DNA of 34,081 nt, taken from positions 1-34,081 of the IMG/VR virus record IMGVR_UViG_3300017786_000060. The stretch is one strand, 5' to 3'. Both the position numbers and the translations under genes were made by a program. Positions 908 to 18,284 of the stretch are shown here, piece after piece. This stretch comes from a virus. Position 1 is the first letter of the stretch; every line of letters begins with the position of its first letter. The notes under the pieces were generated by a model. The model was not told the DNA's origin. It did no database searches and saw only the letters and a program-made list of their open reading frames with translations.

Positions 908-930
908 CTTTTTCGGTTTTTAAGAAAGGT

Positions 931-2436
931 TTAAAAGTCGTCTTCGTCTTCTTCACCGTCGTCTTCTTCTTCAATTTCTGTGTCAAGGCGATCAACGTCT
1001 TCGTCAGTTTGTTTTAAAATGTGTTGCCTAACGTATTTGTTCGAAACATACTTACCAACAAGATCTTCCATTGTTTGTGCCATTTCTATACGCTCTCTCA
1101 TGATTTCAAATTCTTTCAGCTCTGAGAAGTAACTATCTTCTAAGAAATCGATATTGATCTTTTCTTCTATACTGCTCCAATCGCTTTCTGTTATAACTCC
1201 TTTGAGTATAAGCTGAATACGTAAAGCATCTATAATAACAGAAGAAAACTTCTTACGCAATCTATCAATAAATTTTTGGAATTTCACTTCTTCACGTGAT
1301 ATTTCACTTGCTCTACCAATAGTAAATGAACTTTCCTGCTCAAGTCTGGAGACTGGTACGTTTAAAGCTTTATAAAGTTTTCTTTGAAAAAATACTACAT
1401 CTTCTATTTGGCCAAGGTTTTCGCCTCCACCCAGTGTCGTAATTTCTGTACCTCTTCCGCCTTCTCTTCGTGGCAAGTAAAAATCTTCTAGCATAGACAT
1501 ATGTCTACGGTCATCAGATACTTCACCGGATGTAGCATCATAAACCATTTTATTACGATAGCGCGATACAACTTGCTGAACGTATTCTTCCGCCTTCCCT
1601 TTTGGTAAATTACCTACATCAATATAGAAAATTCTACGTTCAGGTGCACGAGATACGCGGTAAACCACTAACGAATCTTCCATATAACGCAACTGATTTA
1701 CTAGCTTAATGGCTTTGTGCAAATGCCCGAGCGCCCTTTTCCTTGACGCATCTAAAAGTCCTGAGTTACATTGAATAATTGCGTCAGTCGCAAATTTAAC
1801 ACCATTCAATTCTGTGGCGGTAGTGCCATCACTCATTTGTGGCGCATACAAGTAGTATTCGTCCTTTATTCTTTCGTATTCAACTTTACTTTTTGGATCC
1901 ATGACCTTTTCGATTTCCTTTACTTTACTTATGTGTAAAGGTTCAACTGGTCGTAGTTCAACAATACCTCTTTGAGGATTTTTATCATCTATAATGACAT
2001 TAAAATATATTTTACCATCTATATACCAATTTCTAAAATAATCAGCAGCTTTGTGGTTAAACTTTAAAAGCTGTAAAACTTTATTAAATTCTTTTTGAAT
2101 TTCTTTTTTTACTTTATCAGGTTGGTCTAAATCTGTTGTAATTAATTCTATAGGTGATGATGTATCACCAGACGCCAAAGCGCCATCTACAATATCTGAA
2201 ACTGCAGCATCGCATTCTGCTTGCATTGCGGCTTCTCTATATTTTACAATCAATTGGTGGTCTGAAACTGCATCGGTCCCTTCCAAATCTACAAATTGAC
2301 CATAGTAACCGCCGCCAGCTGTGACGGTCGTACTTCCCTCATCATTCGCCCTTGGTATAGGCGAAATAATTTTTTCCGCGGATGCTTCTTTTTGAGAAGA
2401 AACCTTTCTATTTATTTCGTATCCGAATAATTCCAT
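931..2436 (-). CDS. 20: Portal vertex protein gp20
   Basis: 501 residues, against 524 in T4. It forms the dodecameric portal at the unique capsid vertex through which DNA enters and leaves, and it nucleates prohead assembly. Family features include the N-terminal MELFGYEI start, a central QLRYMEDSLVVYRVSRAPERR helix region (about 245-270) and the stretch around DDRRHMSMLEDFYLPRREGGRGTEI, used as a marker region in T4-like phage surveys. The C-terminus is very acidic (EIEEEDDGEEDEDDF). A TATAAATA box ends five bases before the ATG, and a strong hairpin separates it from gp19. No intein or frameshift is seen. Confidence 0.97.
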   Translation of the reverse strand: MELFGYEINRKVSSQKEASAEKIISPIPRANDEGSTTVTAGGGYYGQFVDLEGTDAVSDHQLIVKYREAAMQAECDAAVSDIVDGALASGDTSSPIELITTDLDQPDKVKKEIQKEFNKVLQLLKFNHKAADYFRNWYIDGKIYFNVIIDDKNPQRGIVELRPVEPLHISKVKEIEKVMDPKSKVEYERIKDEYYLYAPQMSDGTTATELNGVKFATDAIIQCNSGLLDASRKRALGHLHKAIKLVNQLRYMEDSLVVYRVSRAPERRIFYIDVGNLPKGKAEEYVQQVVSRYRNKMVYDATSGEVSDDRRHMSMLEDFYLPRREGGRGTEITTLGGGENLGQIEDVVFFQRKLYKALNVPVSRLEQESSFTIGRASEISREEVKFQKFIDRLRKKFSSVIIDALRIQLILKGVITESDWSSIEEKINIDFLEDSYFSELKEFEIMRERIEMAQTMEDLVGKYVSNKYVRQHILKQTDEDVDRLDTEIEEEDDGEEDEDDF

Positions 2437-9422: not shown

Positions 9423-9434
9423 AATTCTATTTAT
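9418..9434 (-). repeat. 17-bp junction repeat, copy at gp13 start
   Basis: On the minus strand it reads ATAAATAGAATTATGGC, so it contains a late-promoter-like box, a five-base spacer, the ATG and the first bases of codon 2. Identical copies begin the collar-fibre genes at 16142 and 18284. Confidence 0.8.
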
Positions 9435-9435
9435 T
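9428..9435 (-). promoter_or_regulatory. Late-promoter-like AATAAATA, gp13
   Basis: One mismatch (first base) to TATAAATA. It overlaps the stop of the upstream 117-residue gene and lies five bases before the gp13 ATG, so it leaves essentially no leader. Confidence 0.4.
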
Positions 9436-9787
9436 AACTTTCAGGTGCTGTACTATCAAAAGTTACACCAGGACTTACGATCACTTGTCCTTCTGTTACG
9501 CGCGTTATAACTGGAGGAGAGTCATTTGTATGAATAATAATATCATACACATAACGTCCTGGTTTCAACGCTGCGGTTTCTGCCGCGGTTAGAGAAACAT
9601 CTAATTCATTATCTGTATCATCGACTGCAATAGTGAATGTGCCCTTTGTGGTACCATCGTAAGATTTTGCAAGTGTGCCTTCAGCGCTATAACCGCTTAA
9701 ATCTGTTAAGCCTAAAAGTCTTTCTAAATCAACTGTGTGAGTAAAATTTGCACCTTGATCTACATATAAATTTTTGTAAGTTGCCAT
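9434..9787 (-). CDS. Unknown small virion-type protein, 117 residues
   Basis: I do not recognise a named family. It begins MATYKNLYVDQGANFTHTVDL, the style of phage beta-domain proteins that start with a '..DQGa.f..t.' strand, and continues with DLSGYSAEGTLAKSYDGTTKG, a TAAETAALKPGRYVYDIII turn and a final EGQVIVSPGVTFD strand. This pattern suggests one immunoglobulin-like or jelly-roll beta domain. No signal peptide or membrane segment is seen. Its ATG shares one base with the stop of the 75-residue gene before it, so the two are coupled. Lying between the fibre cassette and gp13, it is most likely a small virion decoration or fibre-associated protein (inference). Confidence 0.75.
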   Translation of the reverse strand: MATYKNLYVDQGANFTHTVDLERLLGLTDLSGYSAEGTLAKSYDGTTKGTFTIAVDDTDNELDVSLTAAETAALKPGRYVYDIIIHTNDSPPVITRVTEGQVIVSPGVTFDSTAPES

Positions 9788-10018: not shown

Positions 10019-10825
10019 TTATAGGTATCCGGATAGTGTAAATCCTATTTCCACTAATCTGTTTTTAGCGTCTACTACATTCACGGTGTTTCCAGCCGAA
10101 TCAACAAAAGTTGTACTTGTTGCCGGCCCATTCGTTGCACCGTTTACTCGTATTGCAGGAGTATTGTATGTTATGCCATTGACAGTATTACTTATTGTTT
10201 GAGGTGATGCTCCAGTTGGACTATTATTAATATTCGAAGTAATCATTGTAAGATGAGCATTATAAAAAGCTTTTAATATAGTAGTCTTATTTGATTTTGA
10301 CACTTTCGTTTGAGAAACATTAAACACTCTTAAATTTGAAGTTACACCAAACCCAGTTTCAATGCCCTGAACGCCTGTCCATGTGCTTGAATTGCCTGTT
10401 ACTCCATAATCAGGACTTTGTCTATTAATTGCGTACTCACTTAATTTGGCGTACCCGCTTAAATCAGGAATCACACCACCCGCGCTAGAATTATTTTTAG
10501 AAAGTCTAAAGGTTTGAATATTTGTTGGAAGAGTTTGTAAGTTAGTTCCAGTAAATTGGTTTTCACTAAGTTCTATAACTCTACAATTTGTGCTTGAAGA
10601 AAAATCTGGAAAATCGCCAGAAAGTTTATTCTTTTTAAGATTAACTACTTCAAAAGTATCTATGTGGCTGTAATTAACAAACCCCGTCAAATCGTGTTCT
10701 TGGCCAAAGATAGTTTTAAAAATTCTAAAAGCAGACAGATCAATAGTACCGCCAAGCTTAGGAGACGTTGTTCCTAAATTTAAACCTGTAATATTTTCTG
10801 GATTTGTGACTGATATACTTGGCAT
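10019..10825 (-). CDS. Leucine-rich-repeat protein, putative adhesin
   Basis: 268 residues. Residues about 50-130 form degenerate leucine-rich repeats of the plant/bacterial type: VVNLKKNKLSGDFPDF, VIELSENQFTGTNLQTLP, TFRLSKNNSSAGGVIPDLSG, and further on LRVFNVSQTKVSKS. The spacing, about 20-24 residues, and the 'L..N.LsG..P' form are visible. The C-terminal part (about 205-268) has the beta-rich YNTPAIRVNGATNGPATSTTFVDSAGNTVNVVDAKNRLVEIGFTLSGYL. No signal peptide. It follows the fibre gene by one base with an AGGAA ribosome binding site. A protein-binding solenoid among fibre genes suggests a receptor-binding tip or a fibre chaperone; which one cannot be told from sequence. Confidence 0.8.
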   Translation of the reverse strand: MPSISVTNPENITGLNLGTTSPKLGGTIDLSAFRIFKTIFGQEHDLTGFVNYSHIDTFEVVNLKKNKLSGDFPDFSSSTNCRVIELSENQFTGTNLQTLPTNIQTFRLSKNNSSAGGVIPDLSGYAKLSEYAINRQSPDYGVTGNSSTWTGVQGIETGFGVTSNLRVFNVSQTKVSKSNKTTILKAFYNAHLTMITSNINNSPTGASPQTISNTVNGITYNTPAIRVNGATNGPATSTTFVDSAGNTVNVVDAKNRLVEIGFTLSGYL

Positions 10826-12839: not shown

Positions 12840-12847
12840 TATTTATT
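12840..12847 (-). promoter_or_regulatory. Late-promoter-like AATAAATA, 668-residue fibre gene
   Basis: One mismatch to TATAAATA on the minus strand. It overlaps the stop of the upstream gene and is followed by AAGAAT and the ATG, so little leader is possible. Confidence 0.4.
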
Positions 12848-15800
12848 AATCCATCATTATTGGTGTAAAATCATATATGTATTGTCTTCCATCATTATTG
12901 ACGTTCCATCCCCATGCCGTATACCCTACAACGAATATTCTTCCATCAGATAAGTGTACGTGAGTATTTGCACCTGTATTATATTGTCGATTGCAGTGAA
13001 TAGTAACTACTTTTTCGAGTAAGTCTGAACTGAAGCTTACGCGATACGCTGTGGCTCTACCATCAACGTTTTCATTTGAAAAGTTCGTGTTATTAACTGC
13101 ATTTTGATATCCAAGATTTCCGTTTGCGTTATAGCCACTCGACCAAAGCTCGAGCTTATTCGTAGATTTGTTTCTTGCTAATACATAGTAAAAATTGTTT
13201 GTATTTCCATTCGAGAAATACAAATCTTGAATAGAATAGGACGTGGTATTAAATACTGTGTGGCTGAGCCTAATCATCGATGAGTAATCCGTGCCACGTA
13301 TATAAAATTCTTTATCTATTTCTTCACCAAGGCTGTCTTGATGAGAAGCTATAATAAGTGTACCGTCACCACCAAGGCCACTACCAGCGTTGTTTGTAAT
13401 AACATAGTTAGCTCTACGGTTTTTGTTGCTGCTATCCCATATCCTCGTTGCATAACCTACGTGCCCACCGGCAAAAGCAAAGACATCCACACCAAAATAT
13501 CCACCGCTATTATCGCCCCATGCATACACATCGTGGTTTGAATCAATCGCAACAAAATACGTTTTGTAGTCTTCTCCGCCGGCATATAGTTTTGTAATGT
13601 TTTCTAAAGGTACACCAGCACTTGTTTGCACTTCTGACCAATGATAATTATTAATTGCACTAGAATATTCGCCAGCACCGCCTTGTCCTGTGCCACCATA
13701 ACCTGCAACATAGACTCTACCATTTTCACCTAAAATCGCAACAGTGTCCCAATGACCTCCACCGTAAGAACCAATAGCAGCTGCGTCAGTAACTTTTAAA
13801 AGTTTAACAGCCGAGGCAGGTGTTGTTGTAATGTCGTCGTTCACATCAAGCATAGGATTCATTACGTGTGCACGATAAATTCTATTCGTAGCTAAATTGT
13901 ATGGTCTACCCGCAGCCGCTGTTTCGCTATTCGTAAGAGACTCACGAGTGGGTATTATTGAGTCATCCTCCATTTGAGAGGCGAGTTCCTTATGGCTACG
14001 CCTAGAAGTCCCATTCGCAAGTGCCCCCCAGTCATTAACGCCGTGGCCCCAAAAATATCCTAGATCATCAAGTGCGTAAGCAACGTGTGCCTGAATATCA
14101 CCTGATTGAACGATTTTACTCATTTTGCAATTATTCGATTCGCAAAAACTTCTTTCCCAAGCGTTAAAATATGTTGTTTGGTGACGATTCGGATCCGATG
14201 AAATAGAAGCAGCGCTGTATCCATATCCTACAGAATATGTTTTTCCTGACTTTGCGATAACGTGAGTATTGTAATAAGAAATATATAGTTTATCAACCTT
14301 TTCATCATCAGGTAGCATCATTTTGGCTCGATAACTATGACCGTTGCTATGATTTGCTCCTGTGCGATACACGCTATTGCTGTTTCCTCCAATGACAACA
14401 TCATCTTCATCATCGATATAGCAAAACGCGTCGCTGTATTGTGGCGCCACAGTATGGTGTTGACCTGACTGTGTTTCAGTTGCTTTCTTAAAGTTACCTC
14501 TCTTTCGTGCGCCGGTTTGAAGAATACTTCCATCTTCAAACATGATTGCTTTCGTACCATTTATAATTACACCATTTGTATAATCACCAAATGAATTTGG
14601 CGAAATGGCGTTGTAGTTAATAATAAGAGTATCGTTGTTTTGGTCAAGGCCTGCGTCATTTATCGTCGTAACTGTTTTACGATCAAAACCATTTAATGTA
14701 GGATCACCTTCTCCAGCGCCGTTGCCATGTACCAAAGCTCTTCCAGAGTGAGAATTACCTCCAGCACGTGTTGAGTTATTGAGTTTAAAGTCAGGCCCTG
14801 TCGTTGTAATAGTTCCAGGTATTGTAGGACTCGCTTTAATCGACACTTTGCTATTACTATCTAAAGCAATACTTGTGTTGTCGGGATCTACATCTAAATG
14901 AATTGTTTCGTTGACAGGAGAAATAACTGTTTGACCAGCACCTGAAGAATCAGTCGATACTAAACCACTACTTGCGATATCAATCTTAAAATCTATTTTA
15001 GTATTCTGTTTTGCTTTAATGTAGTACTTAATCGCGATGTAAGGCTGAACACGATTTGCAGGTGTTAAAGTAATTCCGTGACTGTGCTCGCTGTTCGCGT
15101 CAGTTGCTGTAGTATTTAATACACCACCTGGAATTTCTGTGCCGTCCGCACCATTATACACAGGTTTAGTTGGATTATTACCTACTGTAATTGCATTAGC
15201 ACTTCTTTGACTATCTTGTCCATAAAGTTGGGTTCCTCCAGTATTGTCATACTGGCTTCTTTCAAATGTCTGTACATCGTGAGTATGAACTGCAACGCCC
15301 GATTGGTCTCCAGTCAGTTTATGTCCTAAAGAAGTAAGTGAGCTATTACTTGTTCCTCCGTAGTCACCGAGGCTACCAGCGTTAAATCCTTCAGCAGCGT
15401 CAGTTCCTACTGCTACTCTACCTCTGTAATCTGGAAGCTGAAAGTCAGTAAATGGATTACCGTTACTATCGGTTCCGCTTGCGCTTCCTCCATATCGATA
15501 TCCTATTACCTCAAACAAATCTGAGTATTCACCGTCTTTTGAAATAAATGCACCTTCGCATAAAAGATAATTAGTATCATTCGTAAGTCCGGCTAAAGCA
15601 ATAACAGAACCAACAGGCATAACTTCTTCAAACACTGTTGTAGTTTGTTCTAAACCACCTGACTGCTCGAAAAGCGTTGCGGCATTCTGCCAAGCAAGAT
15701 CGCCATTTGTAGTTGCGGATGTAAGCACTGCATTATTAATCGCAGGAGGACCCGGAACTGTGTATGTTTTAGTGCCAAGAATAAGTTTACTTCCTGCCTT

Positions 15801-16142
15801 TACTTTATCTGAAGTTAACTGAGTCGCTGATTCAACTTCAGTATTAACTGATAGTTTAGTAATTGTACCAAGTATTTCTGAACCACCAACTGTAACTAAT
15901 TGATCGAAGGATGCAGCAGAAGTAAATTGTAAAGGTGTCGAAACAGATGTTGCTAAACCAGCTTGAGGAATATAAATTTCTGTTAATGCGCCAATGTCAG
16001 TATTGATCTTAGTTGTAAGTGCGCCTTCAACCACTTCAATTTCTCGTCTAATACCATTAGTCTTTTTACGCCAAACATCGAAAGTATCGTCACCGATAAT
16101 TCCGTTTCCGAAGTCCATTATATCTGATTCTTGTATTGCCAT
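12846..16142 (-). CDS. Tail-collar fibre protein with C-terminal RCC1-like propeller
   Basis: 1098 residues. Residues 10-50 carry FG...GDDTFDVWRKKTN, also found in the 694-residue neighbour. Residues about 170-380 are a phage tail-collar domain as in T4 gp12: MPVGSVIALAG, LLCEGAFISKDGEYSDLFEVIGYRYGG, FQLPDYRGRVAVG, with H-x-H pairs VHTHD (about 286) and EHSHG (about 351), and the ending RVQPYIAIKYYIK. From about 605 to the end, seven segments of the RCC1 type occur, such as AYALDDLGYFWGHGVNDWGALANG, AILGENGRVYVAGYGGTGQGG, VAIDSNHDVYAWGDNSGGYFG and VHLSDGRIFVVGYTAWGW. The natural reading is a short-tail-fibre or side-fibre adhesin whose tip is a seven-bladed propeller. The tip role is inference. 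Confidence 0.88.
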   Translation of the reverse strand: MAIQESDIMDFGNGIIGDDTFDVWRKKTNGIRREIEVVEGALTTKINTDIGALTEIYIPQAGLATSVSTPLQFTSAASFDQLVTVGGSEILGTITKLSVNTEVESATQLTSDKVKAGSKLILGTKTYTVPGPPAINNAVLTSATTNGDLAWQNAATLFEQSGGLEQTTTVFEEVMPVGSVIALAGLTNDTNYLLCEGAFISKDGEYSDLFEVIGYRYGGSASGTDSNGNPFTDFQLPDYRGRVAVGTDAAEGFNAGSLGDYGGTSNSSLTSLGHKLTGDQSGVAVHTHDVQTFERSQYDNTGGTQLYGQDSQRSANAITVGNNPTKPVYNGADGTEIPGGVLNTTATDANSEHSHGITLTPANRVQPYIAIKYYIKAKQNTKIDFKIDIASSGLVSTDSSGAGQTVISPVNETIHLDVDPDNTSIALDSNSKVSIKASPTIPGTITTTGPDFKLNNSTRAGGNSHSGRALVHGNGAGEGDPTLNGFDRKTVTTINDAGLDQNNDTLIINYNAISPNSFGDYTNGVIINGTKAIMFEDGSILQTGARKRGNFKKATETQSGQHHTVAPQYSDAFCYIDDEDDVVIGGNSNSVYRTGANHSNGHSYRAKMMLPDDEKVDKLYISYYNTHVIAKSGKTYSVGYGYSAASISSDPNRHQTTYFNAWERSFCESNNCKMSKIVQSGDIQAHVAYALDDLGYFWGHGVNDWGALANGTSRRSHKELASQMEDDSIIPTRESLTNSETAAAGRPYNLATNRIYRAHVMNPMLDVNDDITTTPASAVKLLKVTDAAAIGSYGGGHWDTVAILGENGRVYVAGYGGTGQGGAGEYSSAINNYHWSEVQTSAGVPLENITKLYAGGEDYKTYFVAIDSNHDVYAWGDNSGGYFGVDVFAFAGGHVGYATRIWDSSNKNRRANYVITNNAGSGLGGDGTLIIASHQDSLGEEIDKEFYIRGTDYSSMIRLSHTVFNTTSYSIQDLYFSNGNTNNFYYVLARNKSTNKLELWSSGYNANGNLGYQNAVNNTNFSNENVDGRATAYRVSFSSDLLEKVVTIHCNRQYNTGANTHVHLSDGRIFVVGYTAWGWNVNNDGRQYIYDFTPIMMD

Positions 16143-16199: not shown

Positions 16200-18284
16200 T
16201 TAACTCGATTGACGTATTTCTTGTACTGTAATTTGACTTACCGTTCTACAAAAGCTAGTACTATCTCCTTGTGATTCACTGTTGTTAAAGTAATATCTCG
16301 CGCTGGTGTGCGTGTATAAGCTCGCAACTTGTATTTTAAAAGTAAAAGAATCACCCGCACTTACACTATAACTAACAGGAGTCATTAAAAGGGTAGCCGG
16401 TTTGACGTTACCAATATCGTCTTGTCTATCAGAATAACAAAAATGTACACCATGTCCTGCTACTCGGCTACCTGGACTTGTTGGAAGTAAGAAATTTAAA
16501 AAGGATGCTGATGAATTATCTACACCTCCTTCATTTTTCTTATACGTATATTTAGAAACATAATCATGTCCTATCTGATAAGCTCCCATGTGAGCGTCTC
16601 CTGAAATTAAAAATTTTGATCCATCAAACGCGGGAGTAATTGTTACTTCGAGACTAGGATAATCTATAAATGTACCTACAACTGGCGCGTCTGAAGACCT
16701 GGTCGCCGCTTGATTAACAGCTTGAACGATATTTGGCGAAAGATTCGTGTCAACTATTTTTAATTGATGATTGACAAACTCAAAATCATTTAAATCAACA
16801 TTCAGCGTAATGCTATTTGCATTATTCGCACCACCTAAAGCATCTGGATCAGTCGATGATCCTAAAAGATTCGTTTGTGAATGGCTGCCATTGATGTGTA
16901 TACCCTTTGTAGGAGTAACATTTTGAACAACAACACTTGAACTTTCAGTTTTAATGATATAGTTAAGTACAATATAAGGTTGAATGTTATTGTGTGGCAG
17001 ATCACCACCAGTAGGTTTTGCTATGATCTCTGCGTATTTTGAGTTATTAGGATTACTACGTCTTGGCTTATACCCAAGACCTTGAAAATAGCCATCACCA
17101 TCTATACCATTTGAGTTATTTGCATCAGTTTCGTGAGTATGTTCTGCTAATTCGTCTACTGTAAGAGTGTGTTTGTATTCGCCACCTGAGGCACCTAATA
17201 CGTTAAATCCTCCGCTTGGCAGTGTATCAGAATTTAAATTGTTAGCGTCGATGCCGGTTCCTCTACCGATTGGAATCCGTCCTCCCATATTAGGAAGATT
17301 GAACGTAGTAGTTGCGCCAGATTGATCGGTTGTTCCTTCAAGAAATGCGGTACCACCGTATATGTTTGAAATCACCTCATGTAAAGCACGATAGGTATAT
17401 GTATTAAGCGCTTGACCGTTACAAAGTTTCCATTTTGAAGGTGCAGCTGCTTTAGTCCATTGTATCATTGAACCAATAGGATTCGGATCTTCAATTAAAA
17501 ACGGATCGACGTTTAGTTGTACGGCCTCTTCAAAATCCCACTCAAGAACATCATCAGATTTAACCTTTAGAACTTGGCCTGGAATCGGTGCGTCAGTTGG
17601 CCAGGTGTATGTAGTATTAGCGTATTTTGTTCTACCCGTAGGAACGTCAAGAAAACTTGCTTTTAGTGTTCCACTAGCAGTGTGTAAATCAATTGATTTT
17701 GTAAACTTAAACTCGCTTCCCTCTACATATATTTTACCATTAGCTCCAACTTGAATAGCGTTTGTTGAATCATCGGCCGCAGTAAATTTTACTATTCCTT
17801 CAAACTCTTTTTCACCAGTAATATTATCACTCGATGTAAGAGTCATAATATTATTTTCACCACCAGTTACATCAATCAAACGAGTGAATCGAGTATCAAG
17901 AGAAGCTATAGTTGCTTTATTCAAGATCGCATCACGAGCAACTTCATTCGTTTTTCTACGCCATGAATTAAAAGTATCGCCTGCAAGAACACCAAAATTT
18001 ATAGGTTCAATGTCTGCATCAGAAATTGGACTTGTGTATGAGATATAACTTTCTCCTCCGAATTGTCCTGTAGGAGCAGATGCTTGTGCATGCATCGCGC
18101 TAGCATCTGGCATATAAAAAGTAACTCCTGTAACCTCTTCAAACGTGTGTGCATGAGATGTTTCAGGACTATTTGTATCTGCTTCAAGCGCTTCTAATTG
18201 TGTCAAGTACAAAGGATAAAAGAACCCCTTTGTACCAAAAGTGCTGCCCGAGTTACTTGTTCCGTATATATAATAAACTGCCAT
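16200..18284 (-). CDS. Tail-collar fibre protein with gp7-type N-terminal domain
   Basis: 694 residues. Residues 1-70 (MAVYYIYGTSNSG, FFYPLY, HAHTFEE, FYMPDASAMHA) match the start of the gp7 homologue at 31461, so both probably use the same module. Residues 97-114 carry FGVLAGDTFNSWRRKTNE, shared with the RCC1-fibre protein. A tail-collar domain follows (about 265-450): PIGSMIQWTKAAAPSKWKLCNG, then FNLPNMGGRIPIGRG, AEHTHETD with an H-x-H pair, and NIQPYIVLNYIIK. The C-terminus (about 535-694) is a beta-sandwich starting VVGTFIDYPSLEVTITP, like the end of the 668-residue fibre. It is probably a gp12-like short fibre attached to the baseplate. It starts at the stop of the coiled-coil gene. Confidence 0.87.
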   Translation of the reverse strand: MAVYYIYGTSNSGSTFGTKGFFYPLYLTQLEALEADTNSPETSHAHTFEEVTGVTFYMPDASAMHAQASAPTGQFGGESYISYTSPISDADIEPINFGVLAGDTFNSWRRKTNEVARDAILNKATIASLDTRFTRLIDVTGGENNIMTLTSSDNITGEKEFEGIVKFTAADDSTNAIQVGANGKIYVEGSEFKFTKSIDLHTASGTLKASFLDVPTGRTKYANTTYTWPTDAPIPGQVLKVKSDDVLEWDFEEAVQLNVDPFLIEDPNPIGSMIQWTKAAAPSKWKLCNGQALNTYTYRALHEVISNIYGGTAFLEGTTDQSGATTTFNLPNMGGRIPIGRGTGIDANNLNSDTLPSGGFNVLGASGGEYKHTLTVDELAEHTHETDANNSNGIDGDGYFQGLGYKPRRSNPNNSKYAEIIAKPTGGDLPHNNIQPYIVLNYIIKTESSSVVVQNVTPTKGIHINGSHSQTNLLGSSTDPDALGGANNANSITLNVDLNDFEFVNHQLKIVDTNLSPNIVQAVNQAATRSSDAPVVGTFIDYPSLEVTITPAFDGSKFLISGDAHMGAYQIGHDYVSKYTYKKNEGGVDNSSASFLNFLLPTSPGSRVAGHGVHFCYSDRQDDIGNVKPATLLMTPVSYSVSAGDSFTFKIQVASLYTHTSARYYFNNSESQGDSTSFCRTVSQITVQEIRQSS

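Follow-up and report, generated by a model that had tools for sequence, protein, structure and literature searches.

Proteins of the RCC1 type occur in at least 81 public phage records, and RCC1 ends are known on some types of phage fibre. In Pseudomonas phage Ppr_SeaP1, the fibre protein SeaP1_12 (PV763893, 900 aa) joins an N-terminal attachment domain to an RCC1 propeller at its C-terminus (RCC1-like domain, E = 1e-39, strongest over 424–673), as does the protein described here; its attachment part, however, is of the T7 tail fibre type (PF03906, E = 1e-4, below the cut-off) and not a T4 collar, and its RCC1 repeats are canonical. The 1365-aa "tail protein" gp88 of Pseudomonas phage Littlefix (NC_048697) likewise has a C-terminal RCC1-like domain (945–1229) and a further repeat (1318–1339), but Littlefix belongs to the Schitoviridae and no collar domain was found in gp88. 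RCC1 proteins adjoin tail fibre genes in Clostridioides phage LIBA6276 (a 1627-aa protein) and in Synechococcus phage S-SRM01, a member of the Kyanoviridae, the family of the nearest T4-like relatives of the virus studied here; these are separate genes, made up almost entirely of RCC1 repeats and without a collar fusion. Erwinia phage Hallingskeid (L023, 9617–19078) carries eight tandem RCC1 genes, annotated as chromosome condensation regulators; a gene for a virion structural protein comes after them.

Beta-propellers are also found in proven or presumed receptor-binding proteins, namely gp45 of Staphylococcus aureus phage phi11 and P2 of PRD1, both five-bladed, and the seven-bladed gp131C of phiKZ, none of them given as RCC1 type in that source (PMC4901313). 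The best sequence-profile and fold matches to the tip reported below are RCC1, HERC2, and UVR8, seven-bladed proteins of eukaryotic cells whose roles are unrelated.

The gene analyzed here fuses an RCC1-type propeller to a T4-like collar fibre, a combination for which 50,697 phage records gave no match. When the full-length protein was used as the query, the best 40 of 82 phage-record matches covered the collar part only; the tip alone had no match in the same 50,697 records, and none of the seven RCC1 phage proteins scanned contained a collar domain. The literature searched did not yield any account of such RCC1 tips on fibres of phages. The sequence-only reading had considered such a tip distinct. 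Since RCC1 fibre ends exist elsewhere but no collar fusion was seen among those examined, the kind is known, whereas the combination is new within these collections.

The window, i.e., the whole stretch of 34,081 bases that constitutes the virus record, has almost all of its genes on the minus strand. The gene order is gp25, gp6, gp7-like (1860 aa), gp8, a DUF4815 protein (1764 aa), two collar fibres, a 668-aa fibre-like protein, a 268-aa and a 117-aa protein, the latter of a fibre-assembly family, gp13, gp14, gp15, terminase, sheath, tube, portal, and prohead protease. The RCC1-tipped fibre gene thus sits between gp8/DUF4815 and the neck genes gp13–gp14, adjoining the second collar fibre. The portal is approximately 50% identical to those of cyanophages and of Methylophilales phage Melnitz, which points to an uncultured T4-like marine phage as the source. 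The second collar fibre (16200–18284, 694 aa) is paralogous to the RCC1-tipped one over residues 3–383 (26% identity, E = 6e-18), i.e., in the N-terminal and collar parts, and has its own, different C-terminal tip. The 117-aa protein (9434–9787) matches PHROG families including "L-shaped tail fiber protein assembly" and may be a fibre chaperone. The 268-aa protein adjoining the fibres (10019–10825) has a weak leucine-rich-repeat match (E = 0.004); being 39% identical in the relative L013, where gp13 is about 80% identical, it appears to be fast-evolving. The features of the RCC1-tipped fibre are listed in the table.

Table. Features of the RCC1-tipped collar fibre gene, with residue numbers of the protein and positions in the window
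Feature	Residues	Positions	Strand	Basis
Collar-type tail fibre gene, 1098 aa	1–1098	12846..16142	(-)	ORF, Pfam Collar PF07484, neighbour paralogy
N-terminal part, probably for baseplate attachment (predicted function)	1–173	15624..16142	(-)	Conservation
Collar domain and HxH-rich head, ending in RVQPYIAIKYYIKAK	174–378	15009..15623	(-)	Pfam Collar; Gp10_C in orthologues
Hypervariable collar-head insert	281–355	15078..15302	(-)	Low identity to L001; swapped independently of tip
Shared neck, ending at the exchange boundary	379–446	14805..15008	(-)	Identity drop vs L013
Tip-linked segment (LVHG...MFEDGSILQTGA)	447–559	14466..14804	(-)	Seen with RCC1 tips only
RCC1-type beta-propeller tip	560–1098	12849..14465	(-)	Pfam PF25390, PDB profile, AlphaFold with Foldseek/VIA
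Hairpin 1, poor RCC1 match	573–585	14388..14426	(-)	Strands in both models
Repeat 2	616–640	14223..14297	(-)	Model strands; profile match in L008
Repeat 3	674–701	14040..14123	(-)	Model strands; profile match in L008
Long insert separating repeats 3 and 4, HVMNPM...TT.P motif	702–783	13794..14039	(-)	Four-tip alignment
Repeat 4	784–814	13701..13793	(-)	Profile match, 17.2 bits
Repeat 5	849–877	13512..13598	(-)	Profile match, 13.5 bits
Repeat 6, degenerate in window	910–949	13296..13415	(-)	Model strands; weak match in L008
Repeat 7	969–1002	13137..13238	(-)	Profile match, 9.5 bits
Repeat 8	1045–1073	12924..13010	(-)	Profile match, 0.5 bits in window, 7.1 in L002

The tail collar domain is recognized at residues 178–243 (PF07484, E = 2.9e-9, 37 bits against a cut-off of 24), and Gp10_C matches were found in the orthologues L015 and L016. 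The stretch singled out in the sequence-only reading (12846–14340) corresponds to residues ~602–1098 of the 1098-aa reading frame, and the proposed fusion of a propeller to a gp12-type collar protein is borne out by this collar match together with the RCC1 fold seen by sequence profile and in the models. As 720 residues follow the collar head, we call the protein gp12-like and do not assign it as gp12. Its location in the tail is predicted from synteny and Pfam only, and it is presumably trimeric.

The RCC1 character of the tip is supported by several sequence comparisons. The Pfam family PF25390 (RCC1-like domain) matches the whole protein with E = 1.1e-13 (best stretch, residues 686–885) and the tip alone with E = 9.6e-15; at 55 bits, the score of the window tip lies under the Pfam gathering score of 150. 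All four homologous tips are matched (best E = 7.5e-17), while the single-repeat family PF00415 is borderline only (9e-4 in L008). A search of the PDB with a single sequence gave no match; with a profile of four sequences, HERC2 was found at 1e-9 (best), UVR8 at 8e-7, and the RCC1-type SRM1/Prp20 at 7e-6. A repeat profile built solely from RCC1 proteins of other phages yielded four matches of at least 0 bits in the window tip, against a mean of 0.10 and a maximum of 2 in 300 shuffles, and eight in the L008 tip, again against 0.10. RCC1-type sequence is therefore present in the tip far beyond chance.

The models agree with this assignment. The AlphaFold model of the window tip, made with four sequences, is of low confidence (pLDDT 57, pTM 0.68), and that of the L008 homologue, which is 33% identical, is poorer (pLDDT 45, pTM 0.56). 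RCC1 chains nevertheless come top for both. The first 49 Foldseek rows for the window model are all RCC1-family propellers (led by WBSCR16, UVR8, RCC1, RCC2, and HERC2; best E = 1.9e-11), and VIA-align gives Z = 17.4 with HERC2 RLD2 for the window model and places RCC1 first, with Z = 15.1, for the L008 model. The phiKZ propeller gp131C, which may still be related, is absent among the matches listed. Structure prediction and comparison with propellers, the check suggested for the initial reading, thus returned RCC1 propellers as the best match of both predicted folds; since both models are of low confidence, support for the fold is moderate and little can be said about its detail.

The number of blades is less certain. 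Seven segments of RCC1 form, starting at about residue 605 and equated with the seven blades of RCC1, had been proposed; their RCC1 type is upheld by Pfam and the repeat profile, and the propeller fold by profile and models, but not their number, because model secondary structure and alignment delineate eight hairpins, the first at residues 573–585, upstream of that start, and eight blades are at least as good a fit as seven. Taken singly, only repeats 4, 5, 7, and 8 reach 0 bits in the window, and the other four hairpins are supported by homologues and models. Hairpins 1 and 6 match RCC1 poorly in the window; the Pfam RCC1-like match in L001 begins at hairpin 1, and repeat 6 is easier to recognize in L008 (SYIVTEHSQPQLWAAGSSNHYG). 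Pairwise hhalign comparison of single blades was uninformative. The designed eight-bladed propeller Scone-E aligned with the L008 model over 298 of 311 residues, and RCC1 itself (1i2m_D) over 306 of 390. With the window model, the designed eight-bladed propeller Ika8 (PMC6327176) aligned over 296 of 318 residues, so that both designed proteins were covered almost to full length (93–96%). The final strand, YDFTPIMMD, might pair with hairpin 1 and so complete the ring. AlphaFold is sometimes ambiguous on blade number (PMC9218822). On balance, eight is the probable number of blades; seven is possible, yet clearly the less probable. The motif HVMNP...TT.P in the long insert that separates repeats 3 and 4 is retained in the RCC1 tips, including the one with an overall identity of 33%; in L002 it begins with HPMNP.

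Orthologues of the fibre were collected via its N-terminal part, and six of them are complete. Their first 40 residues are 70–92% identical in all six, regardless of the tip, and the relatives keep the same gene order around the fibre; in L013, gp13 and gp14 show about 80% identity. The proteins of L013, L015, and L016 (569–664 aa) have the same first ~445 residues, including a neck that is 65–77% identical, followed by short, unrelated tips; identity to L013 falls from 80% at residues 401–440 to 15% at 441–480. The neck of L008, in contrast, is only 48% identical, yet L008 has in common with the window the RCC1 tip and the preceding segment of ~110 residues, being 65–72% identical at 441–520. 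Residues 441–560 are 62–92% identical among the RCC1-tipped proteins and absent from L013, L015, and L016, and the tip-linked segment has no credible match in phage records. From these opposite patterns of neck and tip identity, we conclude that the tip moves separately, as a single cassette that starts near residue 447 and includes everything up to the C-terminus. The proposed comparison with fibre tips of related phages gave a homologous tip in L008 and unrelated ones in the three relatives with the more similar necks.

Only three independent tip relatives (the contigs of L001 and L002 and the near-identical pair L008/L009) were found in 2.9 million viral contigs, and none in 84,980 genomes; these scans depend on short conserved peptides, and distant relatives would escape them. 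In L009 (3723–6997), the near-identical twin of the L008 fibre is broken into two reading frames within the propeller, reflecting a frameshift or an assembly error.

Since relatives replace the tip with unrelated ones, it is most likely an exchangeable host-recognition head. The distal position of the propeller and its exchange, both typical of receptor-binding domains, and the presence of propellers in such proteins favour binding to the host surface, and we consider it probable that the propeller acts as a receptor-binding tip. According to this model, residues 1–446 would form the shared baseplate-side part of a T4-like collar-type tail fibre, while residues 447–1098 would form a single exchangeable cassette composed of a ~110-residue connector and an RCC1-superfamily propeller, probably eight-bladed. 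The loop-lined face of the propeller would be turned to the host surface and bind a receptor, either a glycan or an outer-membrane protein, and a swap of the cassette would bring about a change of host.

The main rival concerns the collar-head insert, which varies far more than the tip between the window and L001. This insert is the most variable part of the protein (33% identity between the two, against 86–88% in the flanking parts and 87% in the RCC1 tip; locally 25–37%, against 65–100% in the rest of the protein), and it is the insert, not the propeller, that changes fastest between them, which counts against the propeller as the recognition site. The inserts of L002 and L016 are alike (53% over 116 aa) although their tips differ, so the insert is swapped between fibres with different tips, and insert and tip are exchanged independently of each other. 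In phage T4 gp12, the head after the collar is receptor-binding, and gp12-type heads offer a parallel for an insert that would be the true receptor-binding determinant, with the RCC1 tip as a secondary adhesin or structural cap that might, for instance, attach weakly and reversibly to a widespread component of the surface. This explanation has to reckon with some 650 more residues beyond the collar head and neck that are likewise exchanged as a unit, and we regard it as unlikely, though not to be neglected. The insert is nevertheless a candidate second host-range site; within the preferred model of a receptor-binding propeller, it would be a second exchangeable surface that may add to host choice.

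RCC1 and HERC2 propellers are protein-binding modules, and the propeller might instead bind another virion protein (a neighbouring fibre, a chaperone, or the baseplate) as an assembly or fibre-clasping domain. Retention of HVMNP in the 702–783 insert, even in the 33%-identical tip, is what a conserved contact would produce; relatives with the same gene order, however, manage without an RCC1 tip, and such a role is improbable. Finally, a DNA-condensing function, suggested from the family name for the eleven RCC1 proteins of jumbo coliphage phAPEC6 (PMC7247149), has a negligible chance of applying here and was set aside because the RCC1 domain of this protein belongs to a tail collar fibre, located outside the capsid, and RCC1 propellers bind many kinds of ligands.

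The fold family, the architecture, and the exchange of both modules are thus observed in the proteins compared. The composite picture, in which the two recognition modules of a T4-like collar fibre (the insert in its collar head and the propeller at its distal end) are shuffled independently and the propeller, of RCC1 type and eight-bladed, is an exchangeable cassette for receptor binding, is offered tentatively, as a possible rather than a probable whole. The names often given to phage RCC1 proteins, "regulator of chromosome condensation" and "DNA condensation protein", may mislead on function, and an RCC1 gene whose tip is swapped among relatives is a clear case for an RCC1 domain at work on the end of a tail fibre. 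The RCC1 tip also provides a testable candidate module for host recognition in uncultured marine T4-like phages.
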